Assembly (NCBI GenBank): GCA_963930775.1
Contig: OZ005693.1
Location: 1,984,001-2,048,000, forward strand
Length of the DNA: 64,000 nt
Reading direction: 5' to 3'
Source of the DNA: Cliona cf. orientalis
Taxonomy: Eukaryota > Porifera > Demospongiae > Clionaida > Clionaidae
In this document: positions 5,499-54,980 of the stretch, in pieces
Numbering within the stretch: the stretch's first letter is position 1
Layout: every line of letters begins with the position of its first letter
The notes under the pieces: model-generated
What the model saw: the letters and a program-made list of their open reading frames with translations, nothing else
Database searches by the model: none
Told to the model about the DNA's origin: nothing
Position numbers and translations under genes: made by a program

Positions 5499-7187
5499 TT
5501 ATAGCAGGTAGATGTATAAATTTTGTATAGTCCCACTAGCATCAGGGATAGCACAGCGAAACTTGCCAGTTGGAGAAGTGACTCCTTCTCTTCGGTTGAG
5601 ACGAACCACCTGAGCACCCCTGTTACGATAGAAACCACGTTCAGCCTTCTTTACTGAAACAGTTTCACCACTGGGATAGTGAAACTCTCCGAATCGATAC
5701 GGTTGAGTGCCACAGCAGGTCACAAGGTCAGTCTTGCACAAAAGGGCATTCTCATTCTCACCCACCTCCGACAGAGAGATGACACTGTTGTTGAGATACA
5801 CTTTCCCATTCAGCTCAAAATACACGGATGCAGTTACGTTAGGCTTAGTGGGCTGGCTGGTTGTAACTGTGGTCTCAGAAGTAGCCATAGCTCTTTTCGT
5901 GGTTGTTGAAATATCAGCGATTGTAGTAGTATCAACTCGAGTATCAGTGGTCGCTGCGGTGGTTGGTTCAAGATCAGTATCATCAATATTGCCACTGACA
6001 AGGGTGCACACCGAGTAGACAGGATCTGTAGCGATGGTGAACTGATCTGAGACTGAGATGTCACTACTGCAGGCACTGATTACTTCACCAGTTTCAGCAG
6101 TATTGTTGAAGATGTTTGATGCTGTAATTTCCAGTGAACTTCCATGAACAGTAGCAAAACCTCCTCTGGTGGCATTGTTGAAGCCGATTGTACTCCTGCT
6201 GATCTTAACTTTGGTCCCTTTTCTCCTCAAGTACATCACACCACCTTGATTACTCCCTTTGTTGTTTGTGAAGGAGGTGTGGCTTATGAACAAAGTAGAA
6301 CTGAGATAATTTATACCTATTACTCCACCATGTTCAGCGGTGTTGTTATCAAATGTAGAACCATAAATTGTCATCTCACTGTCATCCACTGCAAATACTC
6401 CTCCATATCCTCTTGCTCTGTTCTGGCGGAATGTGCTGTTTAGAATTGATACAGTGGCATTTCTAATGGAAGCGACACCTCCATTATAGACAGCACTATT
6501 GTCTATAAAGCTACAATGACTAATAGTGACCACGCTTATTGTATTCTCTATTAATAAAACTCCTCTCTCATAATGATATCCAGCTTTATTATTGACAAAG
6601 TTAGTATGGCATAACTCCAATGAAGAATTGTCAGTATGTAAGGAGGGAAGATTACGATTGTTGGTAAAGTTACACCCTATAATTATTGCAGAGGAGCTTC
6701 GGATACGCAGACCTAACATCTGAGATAAACTGGATTCTTGTAATGTAAGATTCGCTACTGACTCACTCTGAAGCCTACAGTGCACAAAATCGATGCCACT
6801 TATATGAACACTCTGGACATTAGTGATTTGGTACTGGATATCCTCATCAATACAGTAAATTTCTGTTGAACCCACAGAGCTCATTATGAAAGAAGAAAGT
6901 TTAGAAGCAATGGTCCTCGACCTGGTGTTGCTGTATCTCTCACTAGCTCTGTGATGGCCAGCCTGAAACTTCAAGATAATCTCAGAAGGCTCAGACGTAT
7001 AGTATTGTCTGTAATCACCATGTAGATATTGAAAGAATGTAAGGCAAGGCTCTCCAGTAAGCTCCCCAGGACAGGGACTACTTGCTGATTGTATGATGTG
7101 AAACGTTTCAGAATCTTCACATGTTGCAGGCTGGCTTGTATAGAGCAAAAGAATGACCATCAACATCCAGGGTTGAAGTCTGGCCAT
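5499..7187 (-). CDS. Beta-helix 1: secreted right-handed beta-helix / Ig-like protein
   Basis: Single-exon ORF of 562 aa starting at an ATG with a clean signal peptide (MARLQPWMLMVILLLYTSQPATC). Residues about 125-385 are rung-like repeats of the form C.F..N....GGV..I....V.I..S.F..N, typical of pectate-lyase-like parallel beta-helices and bacterial Pmp-type repeats. A Thr/Ser-rich, mucin-like linker follows (about 405-445). The C-terminal 110 residues form an Ig-like domain with paired Cys (LLCKTDLVTCC ... KFRCAIPDASG). No GPI or TM signal is visible, so it is probably secreted, with many N-glycosylation sequons. It carries only one copy of the GGVFAVDD rung that is multiplied in its paralogues at 14581 and 59766. 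Ligand and role are unknown. Confidence 0.85.
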   Translation of the reverse strand: MARLQPWMLMVILLLYTSQPATCEDSETFHIIQSASSPCPGELTGEPCLTFFQYLHGDYRQYYTSEPSEIILKFQAGHHRASERYSNTRSRTIASKLSSFIMSSVGSTEIYCIDEDIQYQITNVQSVHISGIDFVHCRLQSESVANLTLQESSLSQMLGLRIRSSSAIIIGCNFTNNRNLPSLHTDNSSLELCHTNFVNNKAGYHYERGVLLIENTISVVTISHCSFIDNSAVYNGGVASIRNATVSILNSTFRQNRARGYGGVFAVDDSEMTIYGSTFDNNTAEHGGVIGINYLSSTLFISHTSFTNNKGSNQGGVMYLRRKGTKVKISRSTIGFNNATRGGFATVHGSSLEITASNIFNNTAETGEVISACSSDISVSDQFTIATDPVYSVCTLVSGNIDDTDLEPTTAATTDTRVDTTTIADISTTTKRAMATSETTVTTSQPTKPNVTASVYFELNGKVYLNNSVISLSEVGENENALLCKTDLVTCCGTQPYRFGEFHYPSGETVSVKKAERGFYRNRGAQVVRLNRREGVTSPTGKFRCAIPDASGTIQNLYIYLL

Positions 7188-7730
7188 TGTAATACTGGTA
7201 TCTGCTCACTGATTCAGGCTGCCAGGTAGCTAGAGAGAGACAACAATTCTGTTTGAGTTAAATTTGAAATATCTCGGTATACAGGTGCTGTTCCAATTCT
7301 GTATTGGTGGGCAAACTTCAGAGTATAATAGCTATTATAAAATTAATACAATGATTCTAGTCCCTCTTCTATTATATCACTGTAAAAACTTAGGTGGGCA
7401 GTGTCCACCATTTTGTCTCCCCTATCACACCAATTGCCCATTTGGTGTGCTGTGGGAGACAAAGTGGTGGGATCTACCTACCTTTATTATATAATCCAGC
7501 AGCAGAGCGGCTAATTCTGGCATTTATATTGACTATGAATACTTTTACCCTTGTTTGGTAATAATTATTATTATACTGTGCATGACAGTCAAGTTCAGGA
7601 GAACATTAATTAAGTAGCACCTATAGAAATGGGTATGTTAAATTCAAAAATGAGGGATCAAATTCTGTTATGCTGATTCTGTATTGTTATTCCATTCTTC
7701 CCATCACACAAATCCACAATCACCAATCAT
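7188..7730. repeat. Intergenic DNA with a foldback MITE at 7405-7470
   Basis: Presumed promoter side of beta-helix 1. The only structured element is a near-palindrome at 7405-7470: CCACCATTTTGTCTCCC pairs with GGGAGACAAAGTGGTGG around a small loop. The remainder is AT-rich and non-coding. Confidence 0.55.
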
Positions 7731-7851
7731 TCCCCACGCACCATCATGGTAAAAATTTGAAAAGATGATCTTGAGCAGCAAACACCCAAGAGATCGATAA
7801 TTATGTAGTTTACCCGGAAAGCTAGAGAGATACAGCTACCACACCACTTGA
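7731..7851 (+). pseudogene. Granulin/FUT chimeric scar 1
   Basis: The first about 70 bp match the granulin propeptide region (compare 12170-12245: GAAAAGAT..TCTTGAGCAG.AAACACCC..GAGATCGA). The sequence then jumps directly into the 3' end of the FUT-like gene (GTAGTTTACCCGGAAAGC ... CACCACTTGA). In the intact module granulin lies upstream of FUT on the same strand, so an internal deletion explains the junction. Two more copies of the same scar sit at 16853 and 62127. Confidence 0.75.
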
Positions 7852-8320
7852 AAGCAGTGGATCCGGACCTTAACTTTTAATTATAGCATTAAATTAAAGT
7901 ATTAATGTCATCAAATTCTGTTTATATATGATTCAATATCACGCAAGTATCTCATACTAAGCATAAACCAGCAGATAATCTCTAAATATCCATGCATGGC
8001 TGCTATAATATACGTATTACAATAATAATATTATTATTATCTCAATTAATTTGATTTCTGGTCATTAGTGTAGCAGAGGAGCACTTAGTCTATAGATTCA
8101 GTACCGGTAGCAAAGAGACATATTAAATACTATATGTATACAGCTGTGCTATGTACATATAATATTATTATGATCTTGGTTATAAATATGTTGTACTGAT
8201 CTCAAGTTTACTATTATCAAAGTATTATTATACATGCAGAATCATACAGACATGTACACTGGATTCAATTTGTTATTGTATATTGATGCCCAGGGGGTCC
8301 ATATTCAATAATATCATGGA
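7852..8320. other. AT-rich intergenic DNA
   Basis: Low-complexity AT-rich sequence with TATTAT/AATAAT runs. It holds the 3' flank of receptor B. I see no gene or structured repeat. Confidence 0.4.
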
Positions 8321-10581
8321 TCAGTCACACACTTTTTTGGTGATGTGTTCATAAGCAACATTATCTGCTGTAGAAATAACAGTTGGCTCACTCCGTTGAT
8401 GTATTTCTATTTCTTCATAGTCAGCTCTATTTGTTGAGTCAGACTCTTGTTCCTGACTTACATCTCTCATAGTCTTTGCCTTAAACATGGCCAAGATGGC
8501 TATGGCAGTAATGAAGAATATAGACAAGACAATAAGGACAACTAGTGATACTGATCCAATCACTGTTGCTAACAGCACCCCAACGCTGCCAGCTGCCTGA
8601 CTTGAAGTGTTAGTATTGGCAATGCCTATAATACAACCAAATAACAGGTGTTACTATAGTACTAGAGATGAAAATACTTACAGCAATTGTAAAAATAAGA
8701 AAATTGTGTGTCCATTATATTGACGTGAACAGGGTTTGATGTTGGTCCATCTCCAAACACATTAGTAGCATATGCGGTGATGACAAAATGTGTGACAGAA
8801 TCACAGACTGATGAAGAGCTGTCAAGTACGTGCCTACAGATCCCATCAGTGCAAAAACCTGAAAGCACTGGTATGGTAGCTGTTCCACAGATACTTCCCG
8901 AGAAGAATTAGCAGTAATAGGTGATAGTGTAGGAGGATGCAGAACCGTCAACACCGTCGGAAATATTGATGGGATTCTGGAGTATTAATTGATGGTCCAT
9001 GTTTATCGTGCAATATTTGAGGAAAAGAGTTGACAACATGTGCAGCTTACCACTGTGTTGATCATTGAATAGATCACTGATGAAGATGAAGATGTAGAGG
9101 AAAATAACTGTTTAGCTTCAACTCTAGGAGCATCTGGAACTGAAATGGGATGGCAGATAATTAAATAATTCAGCATGCATGGTGGCTCATAATGAGGATA
9201 GTAGTGGTATACCTACCATTGAGAAAAACTGAGATTGTATTATTTATTTGGCCAAAAATGTTTCCACAAACTTCTGTTTCAACAGCAAACGAGCAAGTGC
9301 TACCATTGATGGTCATATTTGTGCATGTTGCAAATGATGAAATTGTTGAATTGGGACATAAGCCACAGTTTAACGCAATGATGTTATAAACAAAAGATGA
9401 ACAGCTGCGCCACTACCAGCCCACGGCAAATCAGATGTGAGCTGATTCCAATGGAATATTAAATGTGTTTGAGCAACATCAATCAGATCAATGTTGCTTG
9501 GTGGAGGAATGGGTTCTAAAAATTAAGAATAATTGGGGTAGATAGCTAGCAAGCATGATAATTGTAACTTAATTATTAAGAGAAAGAAATATGCATGCAA
9601 AGTTGGTCAATAATAATAGTTCCCAAATACATTAGATTGCCTCACGTATATATACCAGCTTTATCATTATTTCTCTGTGTTTTAGCAAAGAAATGTTGTT
9701 GTTTGCATAAACAGTCGTGGATATGTAATAATTATTACGTATGCATGCATAGAACACTAGATGAGTTGACTGTTTGTCAGTGTTGGAATGTCATAAGACG
9801 CTGACAAACTTTAAATTAAATTTTAGGTAATTACATAATTATGGTGACAGCTATCAACAGCAAAGGATCATTATTGTGTGCATGTATTAAATAATATGCT
9901 ACACATGTGTATACCTGTTATGAAAGCAATAGTTGATGTATCAATAACAGATATATCAAGCCCATCAACATGGGAGCACATGACCGTTTTGTTGTTCATG
10001 CCTGTATTCGTAGAGATATTTAGCTGAGAAGAATAACATTCCCTCTCGGAGTGACTGCTGTTGGTGTCCACATGTACTCCAATGCTCTGGGCAACCACTG
10101 CTCCATTATTGCATTCTCCCATTGATCCATTGTTTGAGACCTCACGATGACGCAGGATAATTTCACCACGGGATCCGGAGCATTCAAATAAGCTTCCACT
10201 CCACACTGTAGCCCCAGCACCACAAACAGTGCACCTGTATACTGCAATATCTCCAGGACAGATGCTGTATTGGCCTTTAATCTGTACAAGGTTGCTGCCT
10301 GTTCTGGAGGCTTTAACATAGACTCAATAATTTAGTATATTATTGCTATACTAAGTTTCATGGGACATGTAGCTACATAAAGTGCATGCATATTATTATG
10401 TAATGCCCTTGATGCACAGAAATTGCTACAGGCTAATAATGGCCATGCGTGCATGCAGTATTAAAGTATGGTCATCAATATCACTGAATAGCTAGCTAGA
10501 GCTTATCTTATTAAAAATACCTTTGAAAGTGCTGATAACTAAAATTGCACTAACAAGGGCGCTTTCAACAGTTAGCGCCAT
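8321..10581 (-). pseudogene. Receptor B: Ig-FN3-FN3-TM receptor with stop codon and frameshift
   Basis: Exons by splice consensus: 10581-10521 (signal peptide starting MALTVESALVSAI), 10310-9915 (Ig-like; CPGDIAVYRCTVCGAGATVW), 9515-9227 (FN3-1), 9139-9051, 8976-8682 (FN3-2), 8625-8321 (TM plus tail). The tail keeps YEEI and VAYEHI. Two lesions are visible. A 1-nt shift near 9405 separates LPWAGSG from the expected SCSSFVYNI. An in-frame TAA at 8910-8908 in FN3-2 replaces sequence that is open in paralogue F (YYSFFSG becomes YYC-stop-FFSG). Either would remove the TM segment. A pseudogene is most likely; a secreted truncated form is a remote option. Confidence 0.75.
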
Positions 10582-43872: not shown

Positions 43873-46662
43873 TTATACATTGTTAAACTTTAATTGTTTC
43901 ATGAAAGATGTGTAGGAGGTACATGTGACACAGTTGTTGTTTAGGGAATTCCATGCCGACATCGTATGAGGAAAGTATGAAAACTTGTATGCGTTTGTAC
44001 GAGCAAATGGAGGGTCAAGCTGTAGTGGATGGGACACTCTCAAGTTGGAGAGATTTTGACGAAAATCAGGAATGTCAGGGAAGTAGCAAAGGCGATGGAT
44101 AATCTTAAACATGAGGCCAAGCTTGAGATCTAATCTGCGTTGCTCCAGTGATTGAAGCTCAAACAGATTAAGTAACTCCTGATAGCCCAAATCCCATTGG
44201 TATGCAGCAAGCCTACACCCAAACTTTTGGACATCCTCCAGTGCTTTCTTGTCTTTCACAAGATGGGGGTCCCACACCTGGCAGGCATATTCAAGGTGAG
44301 GACGGACCAGCGAAGTGTACAACTGCTTGAGAGTATCCTGGTTTGCAGAAGAGTAAAACCGTCGATAGATTAACCCAAGGATCTTCTTGGCACGGGAGCA
44401 TACCGAGTCAATGTGAGTAGACCAAGTTAGATTATTGGTTATCAGGAGCCCTAGATATTTATAACAATCAACACTTTGCATTGGGCATCCAAAGAGCCTC
44501 AGAGGGTATTCAGGAGAAGGTGGAGACCGTTTCCTTGAAATTATCATATACTTACATTTAGCAGCATTAAAATTTAAGAAGTTAGTTATCGACCATTCTT
44601 CAATCAGTGAGATTGCACGCTGGAGTGTTGCATAGTCTTCCAAGACAGAGATCAAATGGTAGAGTAAAATATCATCAGCAAATAAGTTGACCTTTGAGAG
44701 GAAATTTTGGACGACACCAGGCAAGTCATCAATGTAGATAAGGAACAACAAGGGTCCAAGTACAGAGCCCTGTGGGACTCCCGAGAGAACAGAAGCAACA
44801 GAGGATTCAGACCCATTCACAGCAACCACTTGAGTTCTGTTGGCAAGGTAGTTGTTGATCCATCGGCTGATGGTCTCATGAAGATCAAGTGAGCGAATTT
44901 TATCCATTAGTGGTAGGTGAGGCACGGAGTCAAACGCCTTACGAAAATCAAAGAAGACGGCACAAATATCCAGGCCTTCCTCCAACGCTTGAAGCCACTG
45001 GTCAGTCAGGTGCAAGAGCGCTGTCACAGTGGACCTTCCTTCAAGGAATCCCCACTGGAGAGCCGAGAGAGGATGGCTGTGGTTGAGATGATCCATGAGT
45101 AGCATGTAGATGTGACGCTCAAGAATTTTACTAACTATGGGAAGAAGAGAAACAGGACGATAATTGCATGGACTAGAAAGCTCTTGACATTTTGGTATTG
45201 GAACTATCAGTGATTTTTTCCAGGATAGTGGAATGGTGCCTGTTGAGATCGATAGGTTAAACAGCTTAGTGAGAGAAGGAGCAATATTAGGAGCAGTGCA
45301 CTTCAACATCCTAGCTGATAATCCGTCCGGACCACTGGCTTTTGTAGTGTCGAGGGCTGCCAAAAAGTCATACACCTCCGGTTCTGAGCAAAGGAATTCT
45401 TCAGGACAAGTTGAAGTCAAACCTGCTGGAGTAGACTGATACTGGACGGGAGGGTGAGATCTGTTGAAACAGGAGCTGAAATATGAATTCAGAAGGTTTG
45501 CTTTATCCACTTCAGAATTTGCCACTCTACCATCCAAAGAGAGGGTTGGAATTGACTGCTTACTCTTGTTCAAGAATTTAATTGCCTTCCAGAATTTCTT
45601 TGGATCCTTAGGGTTGAGTGCCTGAAAGTATCTTCGTTTGGCAAGTCGAAGCTGAGCAACAGTGCGATTACGAGCAAGCTTGAAATGATGAAAGTTTCCC
45701 GTTCTTTTGGCCTTTTTAAAGAGCTGATTCCGTTTCTTCATTGATTTAATAATGCCCCTATTCAACCATGGCAAGTTTCTTCGCGTGGGAATGACTCTGT
45801 TAGGAATCGACTGGGCCATTATTGACATAAATTGCTTGTGCCACAATTTCCAAGACAATTCAACGTTTTCAGACAAAATTGAATCCCAGTCAAACTGATT
45901 AATTAGATCACAAGCTTTGTCCCAATCTGCATAACCATAGCGCCAAATTAGTCGGCCCTGAGTTTTTTCAGCCTTGACTATCTTCCGAGAGATTTCCATT
46001 AGAATTCCCCTATGATCAGAGTTGGACAATGGAGGAATGGTATCACAGGTATTCAAGAGAGAGGACTCAGACACAAACACCAAGTCGATTGTTGATTCGG
46101 AGCCGTCGTGATGAACATGTGTTGGTCCTGTTACAGATTGATATAGACAATACAGGGTTGTAAGATTGCACAAACTAGAGTACATGGGGTGACAAGGGTT
46201 GTCAAAATTAACATTAAAATCACCTAAAAGTATAAAGTTATTAAGACTACAAACATTAATAAAATCTAGGTATGAAAAAAGGTTATCAAAAATAGAACTA
46301 GATGAACTGGGTGGTCGATAAAAAATGCACAAATATACTTTAAAATTATTAAAAAGCACAGAGAGTGTAAGAATCTCAAGGTTATGAGGGGAGGGAGGCA
46401 TAACTGAAACATGAAATGTTGAGGAAACATACATTAATACCCCACCACCATGACGGTTTCTATCGCAACGAAAAAGCTGAAACCCAGGAATAAAGATCTC
46501 ACTGTTACTGATCTCATCTGAGAGCCAGGTCTCAACAATACAAATAATATGGGGATTATAAACCTTAACTGAAAGTAAAAGATTATCAAATTTCGGTAAC
46601 AAACTCCTAGCGTTATAATAAAGAATCTTTAAGTTACATTTGTTAACTGGTGTGTGATGCAT
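43873..46662 (-). CDS. LINE ORF2: APE endonuclease and reverse transcriptase
   Basis: A 929-aa ORF. The N-terminus has the apurinic-type endonuclease signature: YYNARSL, VETWL, GGGVLMYV, GDFNV near residue 147 and SDH near 214. The reverse transcriptase follows with YRPVSLLP, FFDFRKAFDSV, GVPQGSVLGP and the catalytic LFADD near residue 660. The C-terminus has a Cys/His-poor thumb region and LVRPHLEYACQVWDP, typical of CR1/L2/jockey-clade ORF2. Endonuclease and RT motifs are all present and no stop interrupts it. It acts in target-primed reverse transcription of its own RNA. Confidence 0.95.
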   Translation of the reverse strand: MHHTPVNKCNLKILYYNARSLLPKFDNLLLSVKVYNPHIICIVETWLSDEISNSEIFIPGFQLFRCDRNRHGGGVLMYVSSTFHVSVMPPSPHNLEILTLSVLFNNFKVYLCIFYRPPSSSSSIFDNLFSYLDFINVCSLNNFILLGDFNVNFDNPCHPMYSSLCNLTTLYCLYQSVTGPTHVHHDGSESTIDLVFVSESSLLNTCDTIPPLSNSDHRGILMEISRKIVKAEKTQGRLIWRYGYADWDKACDLINQFDWDSILSENVELSWKLWHKQFMSIMAQSIPNRVIPTRRNLPWLNRGIIKSMKKRNQLFKKAKRTGNFHHFKLARNRTVAQLRLAKRRYFQALNPKDPKKFWKAIKFLNKSKQSIPTLSLDGRVANSEVDKANLLNSYFSSCFNRSHPPVQYQSTPAGLTSTCPEEFLCSEPEVYDFLAALDTTKASGPDGLSARMLKCTAPNIAPSLTKLFNLSISTGTIPLSWKKSLIVPIPKCQELSSPCNYRPVSLLPIVSKILERHIYMLLMDHLNHSHPLSALQWGFLEGRSTVTALLHLTDQWLQALEEGLDICAVFFDFRKAFDSVPHLPLMDKIRSLDLHETISRWINNYLANRTQVVAVNGSESSVASVLSGVPQGSVLGPLLFLIYIDDLPGVVQNFLSKVNLFADDILLYHLISVLEDYATLQRAISLIEEWSITNFLNFNAAKCKYMIISRKRSPPSPEYPLRLFGCPMQSVDCYKYLGLLITNNLTWSTHIDSVCSRAKKILGLIYRRFYSSANQDTLKQLYTSLVRPHLEYACQVWDPHLVKDKKALEDVQKFGCRLAAYQWDLGYQELLNLFELQSLEQRRLDLKLGLMFKIIHRLCYFPDIPDFRQNLSNLRVSHPLQLDPPFARTNAYKFSYFPHTMSAWNSLNNNCVTCTSYTSFMKQLKFNNV

Positions 46663-46677
46663 CGATTTTGTTGCTAG

Positions 46678-47676
46678 TCAGTTAGTTCCAGTCCCAGGAC
46701 AATCCTGTTGGCTGGACTGGTTTTGAGCACTAGATTGACTAAGATTACGGGTAGTGGGTGATTGATCTGTAGGGGTTGATGAGCCATGAGAGTTGGCATC
46801 AGTTGCAAGCTGAGTAGTGGTAGGGTTCCCGGTATCACTTTCAGATACACTTGGTGACAAAGGTGATCCAGAATCCTCAACATCTCGGGGTTTAGAGCAT
46901 AATTTTAGTAACCAGGAAGTTTGCGTGCTGAGAGAATCCCATTTGCTCTCCAGGTCATTCAGTACAGACTCCTCAGCATGTATCACAAACCACCAACTAG
47001 ACTTCCCTGATTGATCATTCCTACTGACCTTACGCCTAATATTCAGTCCTTGTATGTTACAGAATCGATCAATAGCATTCTCAACGGTCCTAGTCGTGGC
47101 GTGTGGGTGAGTGCCCCATATTCTTCGAGCTCCCTCCACTTTCACCCTCGCTCGTGATCTCGGATCCGTAACTGCACCCGCGGTGGAGCTGCGGGCGTGC
47201 GTAGCTGACTCGGTGCTGATTTCACGAATGGCCGGAGCTCGAGAACTAGTATTGGTGCGAGGACCTTGGCGCTGTCCTTGACGATGTTGCCGTCTCCTTA
47301 GTTGTGGCAGTTGGGAGGCAACTGATGCATAGCTGCCCGTAGGAGGTGTACGTTCCGTCTGTTCACGTTGTTTGGCTAGCGCTTCTTTGGTAGCAGTCAG
47401 GTCAGACTTCAGAGAGGCTACTTCAGCCTTCCAAGAGATTATCTCGGCTTGTAGTTGCTCAATAACGGATCTTGACATCTTCATGGAGCACCACTGACAA
47501 ACGAACGGTTTACGGTCCTTATTCAGACTCTCAAAGTGACGCTTTGTTACACCGGCGCAGTAACGATGAACAACACAGCCACACTCACCCTCGCACTTCA
47601 ACGTGTCTTGTCCTTTCTCAAGAGCATCGCAGCACAGCTCACAAGTAGCTTTCTCGGCGGACTTTCTTGGAGGCAT
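46678..47676 (-). CDS. LINE ORF1: PHD-like zinc finger and coiled-coil protein
   Basis: A 332-aa ORF. It starts with a Cys4-His-Cys3 PHD-like finger (CELCCD...C..ECGCVVHRYC...CQWC, residues about 13-62). A coiled-coil heptad region follows (IEQLQAEIISWKAEVASLKS), then a Ser/Arg-rich basic linker, an RRM-like or ORF1-specific block around IDRFCNIQGLNIRRKV, and a Ser/Thr/Gln-rich tail. This is the expected RNA-binding, multimerising partner of ORF2. The ATG gives the finger in full. Confidence 0.85.
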   Translation of the reverse strand: MPPRKSAEKATCELCCDALEKGQDTLKCEGECGCVVHRYCAGVTKRHFESLNKDRKPFVCQWCSMKMSRSVIEQLQAEIISWKAEVASLKSDLTATKEALAKQREQTERTPPTGSYASVASQLPQLRRRQHRQGQRQGPRTNTSSRAPAIREISTESATHARSSTAGAVTDPRSRARVKVEGARRIWGTHPHATTRTVENAIDRFCNIQGLNIRRKVSRNDQSGKSSWWFVIHAEESVLNDLESKWDSLSTQTSWLLKLCSKPRDVEDSGSPLSPSVSESDTGNPTTTQLATDANSHGSSTPTDQSPTTRNLSQSSAQNQSSQQDCPGTGTN

Positions 47677-48778
47677 CTTAGCTTGATATTCAGTATGTCA
47701 ATAGTAGTATGTCAAGAGTTGCTAGATCCTTCCCCCTTGACTGTAGATTAATAAGCTATCTCAGTTTGATCTGATACGGTATTACTTTCAGTTTAATAGA
47801 ATGATAGGCCGGGGCTCACTGTGTGCACGAGTTAGAGTTATAAAGCATGCCGCAGGGTAATTTCTGCAGTACAACCTTGTGTTTAGAGTGATAAGGGTAG
47901 AAATGATATGATCACCATTGACTTATAGCTATAATACCTGTAAGAGCGATATGGTACCCCCCGTGAAATGGGCCCCCCGTACCCCCATATCGCTAGCGGT
48001 ATGGGTCCCCCAGGGGCCCTATATATCTAGAGGTTTGGGCCCTCCCAGTGATATGGACCCCCCTAGCCCTGAGCCCTATGTGTGACGAAGCGCCTTAGGA
48101 TGGCGTAGTAACAGCGTCCATGGCTGCCCTCGTACTCACTTCGTCGCTTACAGCACGAGCGTCGTGGCCATAACTTGCACAATTCACTGTAGCAAACGTT
48201 CGATCATCTTTCATTTTTTATTGATGTAGTCTGGCGTCCACTTGGACCGTTCTGCCACGCCCCATTTGCATAAAATTAAAGAAATTTCCTTGCTGTACTA
48301 AGGGAAATTTTTATGCCAATCCTTTCTTGCTGCACCAAGAGACACTTTTATGCCAATCTTGCCTTGCTGTACAGCAAGGCAAACTTTAATGCCAGCTAAC
48401 TCAGCATAAAATCGCCTTGTGATTGCTAATTATACTAACATTTATAAAGGAAAGATTTTATGCCAGATCATTTAATTACAGGAGCATACCCTGATTAACT
48501 TAATCACAGGGTTTACCCACTATACTTCATAGTCGCAGTGAGGTTTTGGCATAAAATCTTGTCTTAATGAATATTCAAGAAAGGCAAGCAATTCTGCTTG
48601 ATACCGTGAAGTTGCGCGCGGGACCGAGGCGACAAGAAAGGGGCGTGGCTAATAAGCAATCGAGCATGCGCGTTGCGTATGCGACTTGAAGTTAAAGATA
48701 GAGGTGGGGCTGCTTTAGCTGCAGCTGTCAAGCATGCGCAGGACAATCAGTCAAGTTTTGGCGCTCTCGAATTAAGAT

Positions 48779-51700
48779 ATGAGAAGACGGCAGAAGATAG
48801 CGTTGGTTCTCTTTCTCCTGTGTTTGCCAGGGAGGTTGTTCTTTTCAGAACAGCAAGCTAAAGCCGCAGTTCCTGAGTCTCCAAGGCATGTGGACAGCTC
48901 ATCCCCTCCAAATCCGGATATTACAGCCAGTCAGATACTGCTCAACCCCCTATTTATTGCCCATCTACTCTTCTGGATCATCTTGCTCTCTCTCTTTGTC
49001 ATTGCTCTCATGGATGTCACGCTTAAATGTGTATTCTACACATGTGCAATTGGTGTCCACATGTTCAGTTCACCCGAGCATAAGAAGAAAGGTAGATATT
49101 TCGCGGACGATGGCAGGTAATTATCTAGCTATTCATTTTTAATCAGACCACATTATTTTTTGTATGTACAGGCCGCCGATGCGAATTTACCGTTATTGCG
49201 CATGCGCATAAGCGACCCTGTACCAAATATCTTATCTCAACACATTACTTTTATTGCAGGCACACTACAACTATTGATGTATACATTCAGAGTGCTGCTC
49301 ATTTACCTCTGTGTATTACATTGAGTAGAAGGAGCCGTGGTAGAGTTCTTTACAGGATTATGAAGGATCTTCTTGATATACCAATAGAATTGCAACTTCT
49401 TATTTGCGCTGGAAAGGCTGTGAAACCCGACTCTACCCTCACATCACAAGGAATTAAGCATGGAAGTACAGTTTTCTTTTGTATTAAGGGCATGGGAGGT
49501 GGTGGTAATGATGACCACAAGATTATACTGGGTAAGTTAGACCATCATGTTGCCATATTATAACGATGAACTATGTTAATTTTACCTGCGCAGATGAATG
49601 TGTCTCATGTGGAGAAAATGCTACCTATTATTGTAAAGAATGTGAAGCAATGCGTTGTCAAATCTGTAATGAAATGTGGCACAAACATAAATCAAGGAGA
49701 AATCATTCCATAGAGGTAAATAAATTATATTATTATTGTATATTAATTGAATTTTTATAAAATATAATTATACAATATTAGATTGTGACCAGTATTAAAT
49801 CTGATTTGACTACAATGGAAACATCCTCTAGTCTTGCCAGTAATAATGTTGATAATAACGACAGCTTCTCGCTCAATGGTGACGATGAATTTGACTCAAT
49901 AGTTGGTACTGTTGATGTAAATGAGGCAACAAAGACCTTCTTGCTGGCAGAGAAATTTGGTAATACCCGATTTAAAGACTTTCAGAAGGAATCAATTGAT
50001 GCTGTTCTCAACAAGAAAAATTGTCTGGTTATTCAACCAACAGGTAAAGGCAAAAGCCTCTGCTATCAATATCCAGCCATTTATATGGGGAAAACTACCC
50101 TTGTAATAACACCAACTATTAGTTTAATGCACGATCAAACCCGTGAATTACAGAGTAAAGGAATAGATGCAGTATTTCTTGGCTCTGCTCAAACTGATCC
50201 TGACGCTGACACAAGAGCATTTGACCAAAAAAATCCAGCCTCAGTAATATTTGTGAGTCCTGAATGGTTGTTTGGTAAATCCAAGAATATGGACAAAGTC
50301 AAGACCCTGCATGAACATAAACAATTGGGACTAATAGCCATATTAGATGAAGCTCACTTAATATATGAGTGGGATGGATTCAGAGAGCATTATCAACAAT
50401 GTGAAACAATTCCACAACTATTTGATGGCATTCCTGTCATGGCTCTTACAGCCACTGCAACACCTGTAATTTTTAATAAACTTACCAAATTCTTGAATAA
50501 TCCAGTAATAGTACAATCTTCTGTGAACAGACCCAATATATACTTAGCTGTACATCAATGCAACTTCAAGAAAACAACAGGGCCTAGTAAATCCTTTAGT
50601 CTTGATCATCGTGATTTCAATGAATTTGCTGATCAAGTCGCAGGCATGGTAAAGAATGACTGTTCAATAATCTATACTGACTTTGCAACTCATGTCGGAC
50701 CTATAGTACTTGCTCTTCGTGATCGTGGAGTGAATGCTATTGGATACTATGGGAAAATGAAGGAATCAGAAAAAAGTGACGCTTATCTACGATGGAAAAG
50801 TGGCAATGTACCCGTGATTGTGGCAACAAGAGCATTTGGATTGGGCATTAGCAAGGAAAATGTCAGATTTGTCATCAGGAATGGCTTGCCACCCTCCATA
50901 TCTGCCTGGGCCCAAGAGCTTGGAAGGGCTGGGAGGGATGGCAACTACTCAGAGGCACATATCTTCTATTGTGATGAAGATATTCATCATGTAGGATTCT
51001 GGAGTGGTGACCTTGCTCGCCAAAATAGAATAAATGAAATTTCAGACACAAGTAAGAACTTTAGTGAAGCCATGCAATTTTGCTATTCTCACTTATCAGG
51101 GAGATGCAGACGAAAAGTATTGGTAAATCTTTTTGATGAAAGTGAAGACCATGCAACATCCACAGGCAAATGTTGTGATATCTGTGATCAGGGTGTCATC
51201 CAAATGGAAGATAGAGCCACAGAACTAAAGTTGTTGTTAGATGCCATAAAAGAGCTAGGAAATAGAGGTGAAGTCAAAATTGCAGAGTGGATTCGTGGAG
51301 GCCAGCTAACATGGATGAAAGATATACAAGCTGAAAGGAATGAGACTTCTGCATACGGCAAGAGTCCTAAAGGACTGAGCAAGGCTTGGTGGAGAAACTT
51401 CATTCGACAAGCTGCAGCTGCAGGCTACATTACACGTACTGTAAAGACAGCAAAGTTTGGCAATAGCAATGGAGTGTATGCTTCACTTTCTCCTAATGAT
51501 AAAGGAATCAAGGCAATTGAAACATGTGCATCAATAATGCTCCCTTCTTTTTCAGTTGAAAATTCACATGATAGTCATTTATCACCTATTTGTTCAACCT
51601 CCCACAGAGTTGATGATGATGATATTGCTCCAAGAAAAAGAAGAGGAAAAGGTTGTCATTTACTACCGCTTGTTAAGAAGCTCCTTGAGTCAAAAGAGAA

Positions 51701-52259
51701 CTGGAAAAAGATTACAGATAAAGAGAACTATCAGTTTTTGGGAACATTTTCATTTCCAGCTCATAACATGCTATGGTATGTTGAAGATGTCACTAAATTG
51801 CCACATTATACAGCATCTGACCCAGATTTCCTATGGTCTGACGTGCAATTCAGCAAAAATAGTTCAACAAAACAACTAATAGAGGTAAAGAATGATAGTG
51901 GGATACAAAAATTATGGTTCCATAGGGCACAGTGTAAAGGTGCCAAGAAATGTGAACAGTGCGATCACACTGTGTGCAATTCTACAATCCGCAACACATG
52001 TCGTGAGCATAGCAAGTCTCCATTGGTTCAAGTATCAGATTGTGATGTCGAATTTGTGTATCTGAGACCTGAAGATATGAACGATAATCAAAGATGGGTT
52101 GGTGGTCTGCTGAGAAAGCACAGTTTTCCAGTAACAGAAAACTTCCATTCACATGGAAAAATTGCGTCACACAGAATTCCCCAGAAAGTACGCCAGGAAA
52201 TTACGTCAGCAGTTATTGCAAATCCATCATTGACAACTTCACAGATCTCCAATGGATAG
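48779..52259 (+). CDS. UBL-B-box-RecQ-type helicase (N-terminal part of transposon protein)
   Basis: Exons 48779-49116, 49260-49531, 49594-49715 and 49782-52259 splice in frame (1069 aa to a TAG). The N-terminus has two hydrophobic segments (ALVLFLLCLPG; LLFWIILLSLFVIAL). Exon 2 is a ubiquitin-like fold (VYIQSAAHLPLCITL ... LLICAGKAVKPDSTL ... GMGGGG). Exon 3 is a B-box type zinc finger (DECVSCGENATYYCKEC...CQICNEMWHKH). Exon 4 has SF2 RecQ motifs: QPTGKGKS (Walker A), TPTISLMHDQ, DEAHLIYEWDGFR, LTATAT, VATRAFGLGI and QELGRAGRDG, then a CC..C zinc site and a winged-helix-like region. The last about 200 residues have a Cys/His cluster (C..AKKCEQCDHTVC...CREH), perhaps a FLYWCH/WRKY-like DNA-binding finger. 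The frame continues past the TAG into transposase sequence. Start choice is uncertain. Confidence 0.8.
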
Positions 52260-53827
52260 GGAATTGAATATCGTCCATCAGCTGCTGATTTATCTGCTAC
52301 TCATTCCGGACGACTGAACTCCATTAGAAAGCAAGCATTAAAGCAAGCATTGAAAAAAAGTGAAGTAGTCTCTAACAGTAAGGGACATAAAGGGCACATG
52401 ATTCTGTTGGAAATGGAAACGCTAGCAGATACCATAGACAGTGCAGATCAGGCTGTTGAGGGATCTAGCAATGTTTCAAGTGAGTACAGAGTCAGAGGAC
52501 GACCATATATGAGGAAATATGCACTTACTTCTTCACTGGTATACCAGCTTATTATGTCCCCTCTAATGAGCTCCATCCTGGCGAAGGCTGAGTATATAGA
52601 AGTAGACATGACTTACAATGAAAATACAGATACCCTACCTTTGGAATGTTACAGCATTTGATTATAATGTGATGAGATGGGTAGCGGTTGCGAGAGTTCG
52701 AAGCAATAAAGAAGATGCAAATTTTTATTCTGTAGCGTTTAAAGCTATATTTGATCAATGTAAAGAAGACCACAAGGAGTTTAGTGTTGGGAAAACTTTA
52801 AAAGGAATAGTCTTAGACTGGAGTGATGCATGCTGAAAGGAAAGGATTACAGCTAGCTATCGGTGAAAAACTCTGTGATAAACTTCTCATTGGATGTAAA
52901 GTTCACTATGGCCGCTCTTACCAAAGAGTTGCTGACAAAGTCAGCAGTCCTCTTCCTAATCAAATTCGTTGCCTAAGTCGTGAAGCATTTTGTATAATTT
53001 CTAGAGCTATTCCACTTCAAAAGAGTAAATCTGATGTGATGAAGCTATTCAATTCACTGAAAGGCGCTGTGAACATTGGGGAGATACCAAATGTTACCGT
53101 ACCAGCAGAAGTATTGGACCATTGGAAAGAGATTGCTGCAGCATGGAAAGAGGCAACCCATTGGGTTGAATGGTGGACAAGACTTCCTCACCTACACATG
53201 CTGTGTGATGCATTTCGTGATCCCTCCAGCGCTTATGAGAAGGCTCCAAGGGACACCAATGGTGTAGAAAGAATCAATCAAGATAGCAAACAATCATTCC
53301 CTACATGTTTGAAAATGGCCATGGAATATGTCTACAAGAAAGATAAGTGTCTTGCACTTTCATATATAGCAGCAGAGAAACAATTTAGTTTATCCTATCG
53401 TGAAAAATCAGAGGAAAGCCGAAGAAGTTGTGCAGCTAAAAGGAAGATTCAGCGGTCCCATTCAGTCAATCCAGACTACCAAGCTCAGTTTGGACCTCCA
53501 GACAAGACCAGTAATTTCTGTGGCTCCTCCTCTATGAACGAAACTTGCATAAAAGCTCCAAAAAAGAGATATCACTATGTGGACTCATCAGACTCTGATT
53601 CGGATGCCAATGTATTGCCTAAATCAACCAAGAGGAAGAAAACATGCAATGCTGAATTTGCTGGGATTGGCCAGAGAGTTGAAGTTAGATACGATGATGG
53701 AATATGGTACAAAGGAACCCTTGTCAATTTTGATGTTTTCAATGGACAATGGAAAGTTGAATTTGATGATGATGACGAAGAAGCTTTTGTAAAATTTCCG
53801 GATAAGGATGTACGTCTAACAGTATAG
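52260..53827 (+). pseudogene. Mutator-like DDE transposase with Tudor-like C-terminus (frameshifted)
   Basis: Directly after the TAG the same frame continues (GIEYRPSAADLSATHSGR...). It reaches the first catalytic Asp in EVDMTYNE near 52605. A 1-nt shift near 52640 is needed to continue PYLWNVTAFDYNVMRW. The second Asp lies in VLDWSDA near 52815. Another 1-nt shift at about 52830 leads to GCKVHYGRSYQRV, and the Glu lies in NGVERINQD near 53270. GC..H and N..E..N are hallmarks of MULE transposases. The end (about 53660-53820, GQRVEVRYDDGIWYKGTLVN...) is a Tudor/agenet-like barrel, possibly a histone reader. Two frameshifts and a stop make this copy inactive. Confidence 0.75.
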
Positions 53828-54119: not shown

Positions 54120-54980
54120 TATATTATTATTTGGCATAAAATTTTCCCTTTCATTAGATACACTATGGTAAAATTTTATGCCAATTGTGATGTATAGTCT
54201 CTCAAAATGTATTGGGTATATTCCTGTAATAAAATTAATTAGGGTAAGCTCCATATCATTATTTATCTGGCATAAAATTTCCCCTTTTGAATAAACACAA
54301 GTATAGTATTATAAGAAGGCATTTTATGCTAGAGATGATGGCATATAAAAGTGCCTTGCTGTACAGCAAGGCAAGATTGGCATAAAAGTGTCTCCTGGTG
54401 CAGCAAGAAAAGATTGGCATAAAAATTTGTCTTAGTACAGCAAGAGAATTTCTTCTGTTTTATGCCAAACTCTGCATGACCATCAGATGTGCAATAATTT
54501 TTAATTTTAATATGTACGCTGCGCAAAGCAATCGAGATAATAATTGTTATATAGCGTTTTTTACGAAACTGTATAGAGTCCAGATACTCGAATAGGTGTC
54601 TGACTTCATGGGACTAGAAAAAAAAAACTGAGAAGCTCTACTTCACAATGGGAACTGACTTCTCCGAGTTATCGTATGTCGAAGGGGTGCATGTGGCTTG
54701 ATTCAATCACCGTGCGGTGGAGAGGCGACGATCATCTGAGTAGCTAACATTACCTGCAGCTGCTAGAGTCATCAGGAACTTGCATGATCCGCAAACAAGT
54801 GACAAGAAGCAGCAATAATATGATTCTGGAGCTGGGGGAAGTGGGGGGTGCATATCCCTACGCGGGCCCTGGTACGGGGTCGCATATCTCTAGCGATATG
54901 AGGCCTGGGGGCGTATATCACTAGAGATATGGGACCGGGGGGACCCAAAACTATGGGGGGCCCATTTCTCTACTACACCG

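Follow-up and report, generated by a model that had tools for sequence, protein, structure and literature searches.

In this study, we analyzed a stretch of 64,000 nucleotides from the genome of Cliona cf. orientalis (G000:C5:1984001-2048000 of a 216.8-Mb genome; hereafter the window), which contains one copy of a transposable element encoding a RecQ-type helicase fused to a transposase of apparent Mutator type. The mitochondrial COI of this genome shares 91% identity with the best named cluster, which belongs to Demospongiae (unnamed rows reach 96%), and by this marker the host is very likely a demosponge. The helicase open reading frame (ORF; 49785-52259) is closed by a TAG at 52257-52259, after which the same frame is open again to 52661. 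Alignment of related proteins to the window by tblastn ran through the TAG in the same frame to ~52640, followed by a second frame at ~52630-52830 and a third at 52832-53824. The window copy is thus a broken member of its family, interrupted by the one stop and by two shifts of frame, near 52640 and 52831; an earlier inspection of the letters without database searches (the sequence-only reading) had reported both the unchanged frame across the TAG and the two frameshifts, and both were borne out. The helicase with its linker up to the stop (49782-52256; like the rest of the gene, on the forward strand) was over the Pfam cut-offs for DEAD, Helicase_C and RQC. A conserved Cys/His cluster (C..C..C..H, C, H.H; 51933-52154), seen as invariant alignment columns at the junction between helicase and transposase, may bind zinc. 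It is followed by a predicted DDE transposase of the Mutator-like element (MULE) type, which occupies the three frames in the window copy (52260-53560), and by a Tudor-like C-terminal domain (53657-53824).

Upstream of the helicase lie a candidate exon 1 (48779-49116; one transmembrane segment after a start resembling a signal peptide), which would be spliced onward from the donor CAG/GTAATT, a ubiquitin-like exon with a Gly-Gly end (GMGGGG; 49260-49531, predicted exon ends) and no in-frame ATG 5' of the domain, and a B-box zinc finger exon (49594-49715; Pfam PF00643). The gene is enclosed by a pair of terminal inverted repeats (TIRs) at 48265-48412 and 54321-54468 (148 nt, 85% complementary). 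The left TIR has a weaker inward extension to ~48587 and, by comparison with the sister copy L028, an outer end at ~48251, although its outermost ~14 nt are unlike L028; the right TIR, on the reverse strand, spans 54321-54481 and terminates in ..GCATGACC. Judged against the sister copies, the full element runs from ~48251 to ~54483, and no target duplication was found around it. The extent proposed by the sequence-only reading (48779 to 53827) was too short for the element with its TIRs, and the gene has more upstream exons than that reading described (ubiquitin-like, B-box and probably the signal/transmembrane exon).

Searching the genome with the helicase gave at least 65 matches (55 of 318 first-look candidates scored), and our copy set comprised 16 stretches, namely 15 sisters and the window. 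The genome holds at least five families of the element: F1 (the window and L026-L028), F2 (L021-L023), F3 (L024 and L035), F4 (L025 and L030-L033) and F5 (L029 and L034). Helicase and transposase form one ORF in five of the 16 stretches (1329 aa in L021, L022 and L023, 1358 aa in L024 and 1310 aa in L025); L031 has an ORF of 1113 aa with an internal deletion, and the remaining 10 stretches are broken. The sequence-only reading had proposed a search for genome copies free of the stop and frameshifts, and these five answer that description. The three F2 copies differ from each other by 1-2 aa. The F2 elements have lengths of 9478-9523 bp, L025 measures 11570 bp and L028 6212 bp, and the sister copies have TIRs of ~275-660 bp with the ends GGTC..GACC. 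Among the 11 copies with both ends read (L030-L034 are outside this count), six had exact 9-bp target duplications: L021 (GGTTGCGAA), L022 (AGATGAGTG), L023 (GACAAAAAT), L025 (GGTGGACAT), L028 (GTGAACAAC) and L026 (GTCCTGCAC). No target duplication was present at L024, L035 and L027, whose ends were both read, and L029 was ambiguous. The occurrence of nearly identical intact copies in one genome points to recent activity, and the element has been mobile recently, generating 9-bp duplications. In addition, 40 genomic matches to the right TIR of the window were scored, among them close pairs in opposed orientation. One such locus, L051 (G000:C1:11494200-11495000), is a 0.65-kb element with the TIRs of the window and, by eye, a 9-bp duplication (TCTGAAGTT); an automated check based on GGTC/GACC ends returned none there, and L051 is likely a non-autonomous copy. 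The F1 copy L027 is interrupted by an insertion of ~2.1 kb (~6868-8968 of the oriented stretch).

The fused protein is conserved in F4, where the ratio of nonsynonymous to synonymous change (dN/dS) between L025 and L030, L032 and L033 was 0.12, 0.10 and 0.11, respectively, with 0.13-0.16 for the helicase and 0.07-0.12 for the transposase in the same comparisons. Thus, both halves are under constraint in this family. The comparison of L025 with L031 gave 0.35 on seven changes only, and for F2 the values were 0.14, from three changes, and 0.27, from four. For the helicase, the window copy gave 0.16-0.22 against its F1 sisters. F5 gave 0.42, and F3 gave 0.70, with a stop in nine codon pairs.

Relatives were also sought among proteins (7999 candidates scored; the best 120 of 998 matches listed, P0001-P0120). 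Twenty of the listed matches scored 311-1576 bits, and the next, which were cellular RecQs, scored at most 212, which places the observation beyond chance. The fusion is unbroken in two metagenome proteins, P0003 (1272 aa) and P0004 (1287 aa); the other 18 relatives are shorter or partial. A search of proteins with the transposase profile gave 33 matches; none of these or of the 20 relatives carried a name or an nr/UniRef source in the lists. Next to the DEAH motif, the window copy contains one codon more than P0001, to which it is closely related. The Pfam RecQ zinc-binding domain (cut-off 25) reached 25.9 bits in P0011 and 22.2 in the window, and was below the cut-off in P0003, P0004 and P0014. 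In a tree of 17 family rows and 29 non-family proteins, hand-picked for spread from the 100 in P0021-P0120, the family helicases formed one clade with 100/100 support against the 29 other RecQs. Since this well-supported clade stands on a stem of length 1.5, the tree suggests one old capture of a RecQ helicase. Searches of viral contigs (39 pattern stretches) and genome contigs (64 pattern stretches), which may not have covered records belonging to the genome of the window, yielded no confirmed match.

With regard to the transposase, the landmarks D, D, C..H and N..E..N were found in MULE register in the DDE core of the family, and the motifs named by the sequence-only reading (VDMTYNE, LDWSDA, GC.VH, NGVER.N) coincide with these conserved positions. 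A profile of the DDE core (35 rows, 29 of them used by hhalign; an earlier 8-row version was weak) matched MULEs of the same genome with an E value of 1.5e-6, compared with 0.28-0.42 for controls. The best fold match of the predicted structure was the transposase of ISCth4, a bacterial element that we presume to belong to the IS256 family. The target duplications of MULEs are 8-11 bp according to PMC6446971; the elements described here combine the DDE landmarks and long TIRs with 9-bp duplications, which lie within this range. Assignment of the transposase to the Mutator/MULE type is supported by the profile match, the ISCth4 fold match and the 9-bp duplications. The Pfam MULE model PF10551, however, gave 14.2 and 13.0 bits (cut-off 27.6, which is a rule for detection and not a defining feature of MULEs), and none of its 58 matches in the genome lay on these elements. 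A sequence search of solved structures with query A2 returned three matches, all with E >1. As to the C-terminal end, the Tudor model was over the Pfam cut-off in P0013 and below it in the window, and the fold search matched a Tudor-type fold, so that a Tudor-like end is likewise supported by sequence and model. Of the three models that the sequence-only reading had put forward for checking, RecQ was recovered in the window, MULE stayed below its cut-off, and Tudor passed in a relative but not in the window. Further large MULE-domain ORFs occur in the genome, four of 1190-1308 aa (G000:C1:14284149, C1:14189595, C6:528560 and C2:6606199) and three equal-scoring ones of 1022 aa (C2:11402029, C8:9710000 and C19:1052913); these seven places are not among the listed matches of the fusion helicase.

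A ubiquitin-like domain with a Gly-Gly end and then a B-box were present 5' of the helicase in all 16 stretches, as well as in P0014 and P0016. With the Pfam ubiquitin model (cut-off 25.4), P0014 scored 26.6 bits, over the cut-off, and P0016 (15.2) and the window exon (18.0) were below it; the ubiquitin-like fold is predicted from sequence. In the window exons as joined by predicted splicing, the B-box scored 27.4 bits with PF00643, over the cut-off of 24.1. In all five families, a short ORF that begins like a signal peptide and includes a transmembrane segment is situated between the left TIR and the ubiquitin-like domain. Its length is 113 aa in F1, 93 in F2, ~173 in F3, 141 in F4 and 97 in F5, and it is located at 48779-49116 in the window and in the upstream regions of L021, L025, L029 and L035. 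These ORFs were first chosen by eye, and 2 of 32 other window ORFs of 80-180 aa gave the same result; the ORF was not found in the available stretches of L031 and L032. In the ten pairwise comparisons, F2-F5 (score 96 versus 47 for the best of 300 shuffles) and F3-F4 (72 versus 57) proved homologous and alone beat all shuffles, the score of F1-F5 was reached by one shuffle and that of F1-F3 by three, and no relationship was apparent in the other six pairs. Synonymous change per site in this ORF exceeded nonsynonymous change in F4 (0.038 versus 0.009 and 0.013), and did so more weakly in F3 (0.068 versus 0.035) and F1 (0.060-0.078 versus 0.041-0.052); F5 had two changes and F2 none. The same counts indicated little or no within-family constraint on the ubiquitin-like exon.

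The alternative that survives best concerns this upstream ORF, which the transposon could carry as a small gene in its own right instead of an exon of the fusion protein, and we place its probability slightly short of even. In all three F2 copies, both F5 copies and four of the five F4 copies, the ubiquitin-like exon contains an in-frame ATG of its own, and the signal/transmembrane ORF contains a stop in two of the three F1 sisters. Moreover, every family offers in-frame splice pairs between exon 1 and the ubiquitin-like exon, but overall the candidates are in frame no more often than chance would give (19 of 58 pairs, in a range that excluded the F1 acceptor touching the domain start), and we therefore rejected splice phase as evidence across families. 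On the other hand, an in-frame ATG is missing from the ubiquitin-like exon in F1 (4/4) and F3 (2/2), so that these two families need an upstream exon, and predicted GT..AG introns in the window join exon 1, the ubiquitin-like exon, the B-box and RecQ in one open frame. Should exon 1 belong to the protein, the transposase might be made as a membrane-anchored precursor, with a signal peptide, a lumenal stretch and one transmembrane helix before a cytosolic ubiquitin-like domain; cleavage at Gly-Gly by host ubiquitin-type proteases would free the B-box-RecQ-transposase-Tudor part for the nucleus. In that case a host signal would control when the element can move, by analogy with membrane-held transcription factors. 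We consider such a precursor rather unlikely, and with in-frame splice pairs no commoner than chance we put it forward tentatively. To our knowledge, no membrane-held, Gly-Gly-cleaved transposase has been described.

Taken together, it is highly probable that the element is a cut-and-paste-type Mutator/MULE DNA transposon, with one gene for a ubiquitin-like(..GG)-B-box-RecQ-Cys/His-DDE-Tudor protein, and that the window copy is dead. The single-protein ancestor proposed by the sequence-only reading (helicase, zinc finger, transposase and Tudor-like end) is seen unbroken in sister copies and in P0003 and P0004; its size of about 1,500 residues is reached when the exons for the ubiquitin-like domain and the B-box, both overlooked by that reading, are included. 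Thus, what it observed is confirmed and its interpretation is supported. We infer the splicing and all biochemical roles as follows. The DDE domain would cut at the inverted repeats (GGTC..GACC ends) and join the target with a 9-bp stagger, and the RecQ helicase, being part of the same polypeptide and hence present in cis, probably serves to unwind or remodel the DNA, either at the element's ends or at the gap in the donor. Oligomerization and contact with chromatin are probably functions of the B-box and the Tudor domain, and a host protease probably trims the precursor at the Gly-Gly of the ubiquitin-like domain. Holding of the precursor at a membrane is the least certain step.

Other explanations for the fusion fared less well. 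A relationship to AcademH, the helicase-bearing Academ lineage of animals and fungi, appears very improbable. The domain DUF6589, which we take to be the Academ transposase domain, was found at 122 places in the genome (102 of 338 first-look candidates scored), none of them in the 16 stretches, and was absent at E<=10 from a scan of three intact transposase halves. What speaks for AcademH is that it is a helicase-encoding DNA transposon with target duplications of 9 or 10 bp (PMC10045372), RecQ is reported in Academ (PMC3627910), and the title of the AcademH paper names animals and fungi. AcademH-like arrangements do occur separately in the genome, where DUF6589 adjoins a weak opposite-strand RecQ (G000:C13:8246665-8249044, C3:1266103-1268482 and C1:19726116-19730206; probably AcademH-like), and Academ with RecQ thus seems to be present as a different element. 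We rejected AcademH as largely refuted, the fusion elements being set apart by having no match, among the candidates scored, to this presumed marker domain. Equally improbable is that two neighboring genes share a run-on frame by chance: a stop does separate the halves in the window and no transcript is known, but helicase and transposase are not always separate genes, as the unbroken ORFs of five stretches and of P0003 and P0004 demonstrate, and the two halves are similarly constrained in F4. RecQ genes belong to the core genes of hosts, but it is hardly credible that the fusion is a domesticated gene, formed when a host RecQ took up a dead transposase: copies with TIRs and target duplications are numerous, three being nearly identical, short copies share the TIR, and the helicases form a clade separate from the 29 other RecQs. 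Helitrons are not known to have TIRs or target duplications, and a Helitron was rejected on account of both features. The likeness is limited to an encoded helicase, which in Helitrons is part of a Rep-Hel rolling-circle protein (PMC6431247), whereas here a DDE transposase is found.

The elements resemble MULEs in the DDE landmarks, inverted repeats and 9-bp duplications, but differ in carrying ubiquitin-like, B-box and RecQ domains N-terminally and a Tudor domain C-terminally in the same chain, and in scoring below the Pfam MULE cut-off. The ISCth4 transposase differs in its chain of ~355 residues, which leaves no room for accessory domains. Kolobok is another superfamily, with TTAA targets. 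Its fungal form KolobokH is likewise a DDE transposon encoding a RecQ helicase, but there the helicase lies 3' of the transposase (PMC9587614), whereas it lies 5' here. It has already been reported that RecQ helicases accompany Academ and Kolobok transposons; here, RecQ is joined in cis to the N-terminal side of a Mutator-type transposase that has a Tudor-like end, together with ubiquitin-like and B-box modules in all five families. No RecQ-MULE fusion or ubiquitin-bearing transposase fusion was reported in the literature searched, which was limited in range, available in part and without Repbase. It is unusual for a DNA transposon to encode helicase and transposase in one chain that opens with ubiquitin-like and membrane-like parts. 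This arrangement makes the role of a helicase in DDE transposition directly testable, as well as ubiquitin-type processing or membrane holding as a means by which a transposon controls its own transposase.

Finally, a probable non-LTR retrotransposon lies next to the element on the reverse strand (43873-46662 and 46678-47676 of the window), in which we recognized by eye two ORFs, one of 929 aa resembling endonuclease/reverse transcriptase and an ORF1 of 332 aa that starts with a Cys-rich, PHD-like stretch. The element is also flanked by G/C-rich inverted repeats (47983-48022 and 54876-54947), perhaps belonging to another repeat that received the insertion.

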